Shown here piece by piece: positions 16,228 through 19,045 of a stretch of DNA of 42,728 bases. The stretch lies in NCBI GenBank assembly GCA_016209085.1, contig JACQWV010000035.1, forward strand, positions 1 to 42,728, in the 5' to 3' direction. Source of the stretch: Elusimicrobiota bacterium. Lineage in GTDB: Bacteria > Elusimicrobiota > Elusimicrobia > Elusimicrobiales > UBA9959. Numbering within the stretch: the first letter of the stretch is position 1; the number at the start of each line of letters is the position of its first letter. Below the pieces are notes generated by a model. It was given only the letters and a program-made list of their open reading frames with translations, made no database searches and was not told where the DNA came from. Position numbers and translations under genes: made by a program.

Positions 16228-18390
16228 TTAGTTCTTCCTTACATATTTCATTTTGCGGAGTTTCGTGCCGGGAAAGTAAAAATCCAGAATTTCTTTGTAT
16301 TTTTTCCAGTATTTGCCCGCAAGACCGGCCGCTCCGGATTGGCACAGGCCTATGCCGTGCCCCCATCCTCCCCCGTAAATCCAGTAATTTCTTATGTTCC
16401 CGTTTTTGAACTTGTTGATTTCAATTTCAAAAAGAGTGCTTTTAACGGACGCAAAGCCCATGATGTTGCGTATCAGGTGCTCTTTTGTGACAGTGACTGA
16501 TTTCTTCACGCCTTTTATCAGGATTGAGTTGACGTTTCCGGATATGCCTCGCCTGAGCGGGATAATGGCTTTAATGGGCCCGACATTGTACTCCCTGTTG
16601 ATTCTGTATTCTATGTCCTTGTGTTTTATGATTCTCAGCCATCTGAAATGAGCGGATGAGGCTACGCCGGGATAATTGCAGTTTGAAGCAGGCGTTCCGG
16701 TTATCCATAGATGGAATTTCCACGGCGAATCCTGGGGCTGAAGGGGCGCTCCCAGTTTATCCGGATGCCCGTCAAGATAGGACACGCTTCCCCACCCAGC
16801 CGCATCGCTTGAGGCTTGTATGTATCCGCCGCAGCTGGAATGATAAAAGGGGCTCGCTATTTTTCCGCGAAAAGTCAGGATTTCGGACTGCGTGTCAATG
16901 ACCGACCTGTTTGTTGAAGGAGTCTCCCATGAAACGCCTTTATATACCTGGCAATGCTGGCTGTCGCATATATGATAGCCTTCTTTTTTGTGTTTTTCTA
17001 ACGCTCTTCTCATGACCGCCTGGGTCCGGGCTATTACTGACTGGGCTTTCAGGGCTTCAAGGGGCCAGCCGGAAATCATTTCAGACGGCACCACGCCCAG
17101 AAGATATGTCTCCAGGTCAATGATGTTGACTATCCCGATTCCCTTTCCGTGAACTGGATAAAGCTCAATAATCCCGCGGAATTCCCTGTCGGAATTCGCA
17201 AAATACGGGTTTTTTGAATTTTTTATTCTTTCAAAAACGATTGACCCTGTGGAATGCCGCTCTGCGGCAATTTTGCCATCGCCAAAATTATTCCACAGGG
17301 TTGACCCGGTTTTTGTCTGTTTGGGTCTTAATAAAATCGGGCCGGTAAATCTGCCGTATACCGCCTGTTTGGCATCCTTGAGAACCAGCTTGTTGTTTTC
17401 AAAATTTATGCTCCATGTCTCATCCGGTTCCGCATCCGCGTATATTTTGCCCGTGAGTTTTCCGGCGAGTATGAAGCCGTGGAACGAACGGATTTTTAAA
17501 GTTTTGTTTATGCCCTGGCTGCCTGCCATGTTCGCGCCTATTCCCACGCGCAGGTTTATTGATTTGCCGAGGAAGCTCACCGCGTTGCTTATGCCCGGCT
17601 CCGGGGGCCTGGTAATTTTAAAAGGAGGCCTGATTTCCTCAGGCTGTTTCGTCAGCTTGCCTTCCAGCATCTTAACCATCTCTGAGGCAAAGGGGTGGCC
17701 GGGCGCGTAATCAAGTATCCTGTAGTACTGGTTCCACGCTTCGTTGAATTTATGTTCCCTCACGTATATTCCCGCCAGAGGAAGCCGCGCTTCTATGAAA
17801 AACGGGTCTTTTCTGAGGGCTTCTATCAGTCTTCCCTCGGCTTCCTTATACATCTTGAAATTGACGTAATTCCACGCTATTATGTAATCCGCGCCCGCGA
17901 AGCCGGGCCTTATTTTCCTGTATTTTTCAAGATATTCAAGGGATTCGTGCCTTTTGCCCAGGTGAGAATAAACGCTTCCGATTCCGAGCAGAGCTCTTTC
18001 ATGGAGCGGATTTATTCTAAGCGCGTTTGAAAAGTCTGATAAAGCTCCCTGATAGTCTGCCTCATGGAATTTTATCCACCCCGATTCTACGGAAATGTCG
18101 GGGTTGTAAGGGTCTGTTTTAAGGGCTTTTTCAAAAAGCTCAATAGCGGTAGAAGACCTCCCCAAAGATTTGTAAATCACGGCCGCGTCAAGCAGAGGCT
18201 GTATGTCCCGCGGATAAGCTTGGGCCAGCCTCAGATATTCTCCGGCTGATTTGTCAAGTTCGCCTTTGAGGTAATAACCGTAAGCGGTTGAATAATCAGG
18301 CCCTGCAAGGCATGGAATGCTCATGGCCGGGAGGATACATAACAGACCAAAAAAAACGGTTCTCACATGGATAATTTTTCGCATAAACAA
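16228..18390 (-). CDS. Exported TPR protein with SpoIID/LytB domain
   Basis: This 720-residue protein has a signal peptide (about 1-29), tetratricopeptide repeats over about 32-250, and a C-terminal SpoIID/LytB-type domain (about 280-710). The domain carries the family stretches LLGVVPSEMISGWPLEALKAQ, ARTQA and the final GGGWGHGIGLCQSGAAGLA. SpoIID domains cleave glycan strands stripped of stem peptides, so a cell-wall remodelling role in the periplasm is likely. A 20-residue insert (TLWNNFGDGKIAAERHSTGS) is encoded by a palindromic element at 17241-17307. The stop lies in TAACCCGAAAAT, the start of a repeat family seen at other gene ends. A start two codons in (MRKII) is also possible. Confidence 0.9.
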   Translation of the reverse strand: MFMRKIIHVRTVFFGLLCILPAMSIPCLAGPDYSTAYGYYLKGELDKSAGEYLRLAQAYPRDIQPLLDAAVIYKSLGRSSTAIELFEKALKTDPYNPDISVESGWIKFHEADYQGALSDFSNALRINPLHERALLGIGSVYSHLGKRHESLEYLEKYRKIRPGFAGADYIIAWNYVNFKMYKEAEGRLIEALRKDPFFIEARLPLAGIYVREHKFNEAWNQYYRILDYAPGHPFASEMVKMLEGKLTKQPEEIRPPFKITRPPEPGISNAVSFLGKSINLRVGIGANMAGSQGINKTLKIRSFHGFILAGKLTGKIYADAEPDETWSINFENNKLVLKDAKQAVYGRFTGPILLRPKQTKTGSTLWNNFGDGKIAAERHSTGSIVFERIKNSKNPYFANSDREFRGIIELYPVHGKGIGIVNIIDLETYLLGVVPSEMISGWPLEALKAQSVIARTQAVMRRALEKHKKEGYHICDSQHCQVYKGVSWETPSTNRSVIDTQSEILTFRGKIASPFYHSSCGGYIQASSDAAGWGSVSYLDGHPDKLGAPLQPQDSPWKFHLWITGTPASNCNYPGVASSAHFRWLRIIKHKDIEYRINREYNVGPIKAIIPLRRGISGNVNSILIKGVKKSVTVTKEHLIRNIMGFASVKSTLFEIEINKFKNGNIRNYWIYGGGWGHGIGLCQSGAAGLAGKYWKKYKEILDFYFPGTKLRKMKYVRKN
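17241..17307. repeat. Cloverleaf palindromic element in the SpoIID gene
   Basis: CCCTGTGGAAT (17245 on) pairs with ATTCCACAGGG (to 17300). Inside are two further hairpins: GCCGC-tct-GCGGC, and AATTTTG-ccatcgc-CAAAATT. The folded form is a three-way junction. Direct repeats TTGACCC at 17241-17247 and 17301-17307 lie 60 bp apart (20 codons). A relative is at 18988-19045. Confidence 0.85.
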
Positions 18391-18441
18391 AAAACTTCTA
18401 TAATTTATAGTATTAAATTTCAGACAATACTTAAAAACTCC

Positions 18442-18996
18442 ATGAAGAGCGACGACGAACTCATAAAAGCGTTTAAAGACGGCAGCGATTCCGCGTTTTC
18501 AGAACTTCTTACTAGGTATAAGACCCGCGTTTATTCCTACGTCCTGAAAATGACCGGCAACCGGACCGCTTCAGACGACCTGTTTCAGGAAATTTTTTTA
18601 AAATTCGCGGCAAACGTCAATAAATACCGCCCGGAACAAAAATTCTCCAGCTGGATATTTGCGGTTGCCAGAAACCTTGTCATAGATTATCTCAGGAAAT
18701 CTAAAAGAACAGCAATGGGCTCCATAGACGAGGGACAGGAAGACAGGCCCCTTTTAGAAACAATAAAATCACCTGAAAAGACCCCGGAAGAAATCGCATT
18801 GCTGGCTGAAGACAAAACGACGATTGAAAAAGCTTTTGAGAAACTTTCCGAAGAGCAGAGAGAAGTCTTTCTTATGAAGCACTACTCTAAACTTTCCTTC
18901 AGGGAAATATCCGAAATCATGGGCCTTCCCATAGGAACCGTTCTTGCCAGAATGTCCCGCGCAACCGCTAGACTCAGGAAGTATTTACCCCTGTGA
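18442..18996 (+). CDS. ECF-type RNA polymerase sigma factor
   Basis: A 184-residue sigma factor with region 2 (DELIKAFKDGSDSAFSELL through DYLRKSKR) and region 4 (KLSEEQREVFLMKHYSKLSFREISEIMGLPIGTV), joined by a short linker and lacking region 3, as in extracytoplasmic-function factors. The ATG at 18442 was chosen over an in-frame ATG at 18367 because the sequence from 18442 is typical and the extension is not. It is followed by a zinc-finger anti-sigma gene, its likely partner. Its last codons and stop (CCC CTG TGA) lie inside a palindromic element. Confidence 0.93.
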   Translation: MKSDDELIKAFKDGSDSAFSELLTRYKTRVYSYVLKMTGNRTASDDLFQEIFLKFAANVNKYRPEQKFSSWIFAVARNLVIDYLRKSKRTAMGSIDEGQEDRPLLETIKSPEKTPEEIALLAEDKTTIEKAFEKLSEEQREVFLMKHYSKLSFREISEIMGLPIGTVLARMSRATARLRKYLPL

Positions 18997-19045
18997 AATA
19001 ATTTTGCCGTTGAGGCAAAATTGCCGCAAGCGGCATTTCACGGGG
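18988..19045. repeat. Cloverleaf palindromic element at the end of the sigma gene
   Basis: CCCCTGTGAAAT pairs with ATTTCACGGGG and encloses two hairpins (AATTTTGCC-gttga-GGCAAAATT, GCCGC-aa-GCGGC). This is the same architecture and nearly the same sequence as the copy inside the SpoIID gene, in opposite orientation. It supplies the stop codon of the sigma gene and could serve as a transcript hairpin. Confidence 0.82.

Follow-up and report, generated by a model that had tools for sequence, protein, structure and literature searches.

Palindromic repeats lying in frame within protein-coding genes are a known kind, since both Rickettsia palindromic elements (RPEs; ~150 bp, in frame in unrelated genes; Ogata 2000, 2002, as cited in the accessible text of PMC10969869) and intragenic GTAG/CGTC REPs, some of which code for 20–30 amino acids and which also occur in DnaE and DNA polymerase I (accessible text of PMC3733652), have been described. 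Coding palindromes, as perfect repeats of up to 284 bp, are also described for Nematomorpha mitochondria (accessible text of PMC6649704). Here we describe a cloverleaf-shaped element within a SpoIID gene on contig JACQWV010000035.1 of an Elusimicrobiota bacterium (assembly GCA_016209085.1); the whole 42,728-nucleotide stretch analysed is called the window. The element is most probably a non-autonomous mobile palindromic element whose copies inside genes are kept in frame, and we rate its family as a cross-phylum variant of ‘protein-coding palindromes’ not seen before in open-access literature. The family, its ends and its presence in these phyla were not found in that literature; subscription papers lie outside this scope, and novelty is unproven.

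Like RPEs as their source presents them, the cloverleaf elements are short dispersed palindromes in frame in unrelated housekeeping genes, and in-frame insertions absent from orthologs are found here too (SpoIID, Obg, RsmA). By the same published description they are set apart from RPEs by a length of about 46–90 bp, and they also differ in their three-way junction, their ends and their hosts, which are Patescibacteria, Omnitrophota, Cloacimonadota and others, Rickettsia not being among the matches listed. The accessible account of GTAG/CGTC REPs and REPINs/RAYTs (PMC3733652) likewise concerns short dispersed palindromes, some intragenic, often ending genes and linked or not to a Y1 gene, whereas the cloverleaf ends in TTYACCC and sets two variable hairpins on a single conserved stem in place of one hairpin or a REP pair. 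Neither a GTAG nor a CGTC tag is among the eight commonest left-flanking 4-mers listed (n = 201), and the lack of this foot rules out GTAG/CGTC REP identity. TIRYT terminal inverted repeats (consensus GGGGWSAS in the accessible text of PMC3733652; discussed in that of PMC6006769) resemble the cloverleaf as inverted repeats beside Y1 genes and in that the GGGGTGAA end is one place off their consensus; however, the last consensus letter differs, the motif is absent from the cloverleaf ends GGGGTGAA/GGGGTAAA, and for most copies no neighbouring Y1 gene was found. The Nematomorpha palindromes, compared by description, share the position of inverted repeats within protein genes but are perfect, longer and confined in that account to animal mitochondria. 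The first-pass annotation described a repeat with a three-way junction that can insert into a coding frame, and could name no class for it. The description is supported by covariation, further in-frame copies and orthologs with an empty site (below). The lack of a class needs amending, in-frame palindromes being a known kind, although this family has no GTAG/CGTC foot and is not of the length given for RPEs.

At the SpoIID site, that annotation had placed a 56-bp unit, built of two inner hairpins on an outer stem of 11 bp, between TTGACCC direct repeats 60 bp apart, adding exactly 20 codons, and the sequence and DNA fold bear this out (Table 1). TTGACCC stands at 17241–17247 and 17301–17307, the net gain is core + 4 = 60 bp, and the ORF (open reading frame) runs across the element as TGS-TLWNNFGDGKIAAERHS-TGS. 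All 29 of the 29 same-family SpoIID orthologs displayed lack the element’s residues, the nearest (~60% identical) being shorter by exactly 20. Computed as single-stranded DNA (ssDNA), the core folds into a three-way junction at −23.7 kcal/mol, compared with −8.36 ± 2.12 kcal/mol for 200 shuffles (z −7.2), of which none (0/200) folded as well. A modest AlphaFold model (22-row input of the window protein and 21 orthologs; mean predicted local distance difference test (pLDDT) score, 65.7) predicts residues 359–380 as a loop between strands with pLDDT <50. The relative expected in opposite orientation at 18988–19045 is real, BLASTN and the covariance model described below placing it at 18989–19045; its CTG TGA forms the last codons and stop of an ORF that is, judging by its sequence, presumably sigma-factor-like. 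Core lengths of the two window copies are 56–57 bp.

Table 1 Coordinates of the cloverleaf element, its parts and its surroundings in the window.
Feature	Position	Strand	Basis or remark
Cloverleaf element, 56-bp core	17245..17300	-	In frame within SpoIID gene; sequence, fold, model search, orthologs
TTGA flank, copy 1 of 4-bp direct repeat	17241..17244		Sequence; TTGACCC overlaps core
TTGA flank, copy 2	17301..17304		Sequence; 20-aa ortholog gap
Outer stem arm 1	17245..17255		Pairs with 17290–17300; alignment and fold
Outer stem arm 2	17290..17300		Alignment and fold
Inner GC hairpin, GCCGC-TCT-GCGGC	17256..17268		Alignment and fold
Inner AT hairpin, AATTTTG...CAAAATT	17269..17289		Most covarying helix in alignment
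Host gene: TPR + SpoIID protein, 720 aa	16228..18390	-	ORF and domain matches
Second copy	18989..19045	+	Opposite orientation; 3′ end of presumed sigma-factor-like ORF; model match
ORF, presumably RNA polymerase sigma-factor-like	18367..18996	+	Ends within second copy

The element is dispersed in its own genome and its pairing is maintained. BLASTN located eight places, with a ninth copy adjoining one of them. Aligned, these nine copies have 93.8% of cells paired, as high a value being reached by 0/500 shuffles, and 13 pairs changed on both sides (6.3 in shuffles), with a covariation score also reached by 0/500. Compensatory changes are present in both inner hairpins, and both sides changed at 8/9 pairs of the AT hairpin. 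A covariance model (R1) built from the nine copies (threshold, E < 1e-5) matched 23 distinct places in the 2.35-Mb genome, rows on both strands being counted once, which rules out a two-copy accident. A subfamily of GTTAGAAAT type, with ends ACCCCGTTAGAAAT, has 14 exact matches in the genome, where the reversed-pattern control has 0, bringing the total to ~35 copies; L034 and L035 are common to the two sets. Across copies the outer stem is conserved (TTYACCC[C/T]GT..AAT / ATT..AC[A/G]GGGTRAA), while inner hairpin sequences drift and pairing stays. The distribution within the window’s family is patchy, because just 7/59 genomes, the own genome included, match R1. An alignment of 76 hand-picked loci mixes both strands and was not used.

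A search of the GTDB collection with the pattern ACCCYGTKRAAT-N22-52-ATTYMACRGGGT returned at least 115 matching stretches, holding 126 elements; against ORFs called by our own codon scoring rather than a standard gene caller, 93 are intergenic, 17 overlap an ORF end and 16 lie within an ORF. Length L (ACCC..GGGT) equals 1 mod 3 in 16/16 of those within ORFs, so that L + 2 is divisible by three, compared with 56/28/26 (L mod 3 = 1/0/2) among the other 110. In a second set, which includes three repeats of the first (L326 = L097, L328 = L195, L332 = L144), 13/15 within-ORF elements fit the rule, the exceptions being L284 and L309 (2 mod 3). The own genome has 10/23 copies called within an ORF, three of which are weak calls: L037, in a 98-aa product lacking a Pfam match; L020, close to the N terminus; and L033, with 8 residues beyond the element. 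Length selection among copies outside ORFs was rejected: raw 1-mod-3 counts (56/110; 37/45) are inflated by amplified families, and by cluster the proportions (21/46 cloverleaf, 38/81 all) exceed one third by a modest margin. Stop-avoidance outside ORFs was likewise rejected as weak (22, 12 and 20 of 42, with 17.8, 8.8 and 17.8 expected).

The hosts are conserved proteins of unrelated function. In 17 of the 30 proteins scanned, by our own reading, a Pfam match spans the element or splits at it: RsmA (L097, L312), AtpG (L288), HcyBio (L316), TsaE (L284), RpoC (L248), PurL-type amidotransferase (L109), glycosyltransferase (L116), dCTP deaminase (L311), MiaB-type (L282), RibF (L309), DnaE (L178), MurE-type (L122), ribosomal L18 (L111), PilM (L307), M20 peptidase (L031) and O-antigen ligase (L035), the symbols being our reading of Pfam names. 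The element lies between or beside matched domains in FtsZ (L168), PolA (L131), MnmA (L319), Obg (L034) and rhomboid (L036). Most of the encoded peptides read HPVK/NPVK..FNRV or FNGV; a few instead read TLLN..LTG or SPREI..ISQG. Predicted inserts measure ~15–26 amino acids in hosts that include essential genes.

Orthologs without the insert exist beyond SpoIID. The Obg copy encodes ‘VNPVRNPPCPKGTAAAPPMAGLISNGVK’; against T. thermophilus Obg the gap falls exactly between residues 337 and 338, and the region measures 31–34 residues in the 13 family orthologs displayed versus 60 in the L034 protein. B. subtilis RsmA aligns as 9–70|69–282 to query residues 10–71|90–297, split at the element, and the M20 peptidase copy lies within a stretch absent from peptidase T. 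Between the same-genus genomes G014 and G012, flanks are 83–88% identical and the element is absent from G012; as G012 has a different, longer spacer, this was rejected as a clean DNA-level empty site and gives presence or absence only. The first-pass annotation had asked for a genome-wide model search, compensatory stem changes, further in-frame copies and an empty site in relatives; each was found, the in-frame copies in this and other genomes, and a history of only two copies with no empty site fails because there are 23 places and 29/29 orthologs without the insert.

Judged from sequence and computed folds, one architecture is common to Patescibacteria, Omnitrophota, Cloacimonadota and others. 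Matches listed came from Patescibacteria and subgroups, Omnitrophota, Cloacimonadota, WOR-3/Stahlbacteria, Bacteroidota, Calditrichaceae and a few delta-proteobacterial metagenome-assembled genomes (MAGs), phylum names being taken from record titles; viral contigs gave 0 and 1 matching stretch. Combined with 70 elements from regions fetched later, the 126 comprise 173 distinct sequences in 98 clusters, of which 62 have two hairpins on the stem, 11 an open interior and 25 something between; cloverleaf clusters are 46–73 bp long, and some single open-interior matches could be chance. R1 found copies in 17/17 genomes searched, with 10–81 rows each (both strands counted). In L105, L106, L132, L139 and L174 (WOR-3, Bacteroidota), the ends are kept and the interior of ~40 nt is largely unfolded.

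Whether an insert inside a gene reaches the protein bears directly on how the in-frame copies are read. Ribosomal bypass or removal of inserts has precedents in phage T4 gene 60 and the mitochondrial byps, and the stable cloverleaf computed for the sense RNA (z −4.8), together with essential genes among the hosts, would suit an insert that is skipped or spliced out and never translated. Skipped inserts need neither a length divisible by three nor an open frame, yet a survey of 188 elements, made up of the 23 own-genome copies and the elements that had not been assigned to the inside of an ORF, found 14 with coding-like open sequence directly on both sides on the same strand, and 0/14 are out-of-frame splits of one gene. 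Five, every one in frame, are the own-genome in-ORF copies L021, L030, L031, L034 and L035. The remaining nine are gene junctions (L138 and L331 being one place), where the upstream gene stops within the element or immediately ahead of it (HPVK*, YPVK*, SPR*) and another gene begins beyond it; judging by their N termini, these next genes are presumably PheS, IlvB, FeoB, PdxA and others. Not one out-of-frame copy cutting a gene in two was seen among the 188, which speaks against splicing or bypass and for loss of disruptive copies; length and frame inside genes are constrained, where bypass would leave them free, and we consider skipping or removal highly improbable. Scarcely more credible is a structured leader or riboswitch-like regulatory RNA 5′ of genes: in the relative G014, a Shine-Dalgarno sequence and start codon come directly after 5/7 copies, but such placement is found in just 2/13 own-genome copies and 4/165 elsewhere, both orientations occur, and many copies are intragenic or located at the end of a gene. 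No Rfam family matched the element at the gathering score, and a known RNA family was ruled out on that ground. The five G014 copies (L040, L049, L052, L054, L055) have a GGAG-type Shine-Dalgarno sequence and start codon immediately 3′, as if the element had turned leader there or the insertion site were the Shine-Dalgarno sequence itself.

The flanks indicate how a mobile palindrome might move. Left 4-mers (n = 201) are chiefly TTTA (83), TTCA (54), TTAA (20) and TTGA (11). TTYA..TRAA flanks occur in 53/100 clusters, symmetric ones in 9/53 informative clusters (26.4 expected), and because 44/53 have one TTTA and one TTCA end, insertion appears directional, with the palindrome’s polarity TTTA-element-TGAA. 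By analogy, a gain of core + 4 nt fits an IS200/IS605-like single-strand mode (mechanism as given in the accessible text of PMC6006769) provided that TTTA serves as target and TGAA as element end. Movement of the element as ssDNA, driven in trans by a Y1 (HUH) transposase at TTTA-like sites, is a proposal to which we give slightly less than an even chance. Thirty Y1 loci from 12 other genomes contain 15 TTNACCCYGT ends versus 0.8 expected; 14/15 fall in four loci of Cloacimonadota, in which related elements stand on either side of Y1 genes encoding ~150 aa. At L224 (600–2200), tandem units join a ~148-aa Y1 gene to an element, with a GCGAGAA..TTCTCGC hairpin directly before TTCACCCC. The competing idea, a miniature inverted-repeat transposable element (MITE) derived from a DDE transposon and duplicating 4 bp of its target, draws on the direct TTTA..TTTA 4-mers of 10/11 GTTAGAAAT-type copies, the direct TTGA/TTGA flanks of the window copy and the same net gain of core + 4; we hold it less likely than not, since the main type has TTTA..TGAA rather than direct repeats in 44/53 informative clusters and 1.48 Mb of loci contain no gene-bearing long unit with the same ends. 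In those 1,478,498 bp we counted 62 lone ends and 0 outward end pairs at 300–4000 bp, and a long autonomous unit with these ends was ruled out within that span.

Returning to the in-frame mobile palindrome, the object recognised would be the folded strand with conserved ends, because the outer stem is conserved and the inner hairpins drift yet stay paired. Each insertion would add core + 4 nt, and copies are found in intergenic positions, at gene ends or within a gene. The intragenic copies seen are those with a stop-free frame and an added length divisible by three; out-of-frame copies would have been purged, and the element would be translated as a loop of ~15–26 residues. Several points weigh against parts of this account. 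Flanks differ between subfamilies, direct in the GTTAGAAAT type and asymmetric TTTA..TGAA in the main type, and one mechanism must cover both; in the own genome a copy lies near 1/8 Y1 loci; PF01797 (Y1_Tnp) had no match in 5/17 element-bearing genomes; and the TTNACCCYGT enrichment comes mainly from 4/30 loci in two genomes, two of which overlap so that some ends are counted twice. The genomes are mostly MAGs, the codon scoring behind the ORF calls is crude, and the support as a whole comes from sequence and computed folds. Because one ORF must span the element, ‘in-frame’ is partly definitional, and independent support comes from homologous sequence to either side of it and from the lack of split genes.

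On a broader and more tentative view, a cross-phylum folded single-strand family, directional at TTTA-like sites, might generate short in-frame loops in the most conserved proteins (RpoC, L18, FtsZ, DnaE). Each insertion would offer a new peptide, because the two inner hairpins are free to change, and persisting coding copies, by serving as sources, may keep the length itself divisible by three. Coding-palindrome behaviour would here be joined to a defined cloverleaf architecture in lineages forming much uncultivated diversity, with hosts among the proteins where insertions are least expected. Such copies may show, as a natural screen, where essential proteins tolerate insertions, annotators may find that 15–26-aa ‘insertions’ in such proteins are mobile DNA, and what mobilises the element is a testable question.

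Other copies occur in varied contexts. On contig C132 of G000 (L017), copies at 1501–1564 and 1628–1689 lie in opposite orientation downstream of 23S-5S rRNA genes and one ORF. In a distant member of the phylum (G337, L206, 157–222), GTTAGAAAT ends and TTGA/TTGA flanks enclose an unrelated interior. G348 has ~10 near-identical copies (L272–L283) whose flanks are shared far past the stem (gcggggacgcggcaatggga...), the cloverleaf being nested in a larger repeat and several such copies lying at contig ends. In G005 (L041, L047, L050, L056, L058), related elements are embedded in shared repeats of greater length, and tRNA-like sequence (GGTTCGANTCC) is close to some of them.
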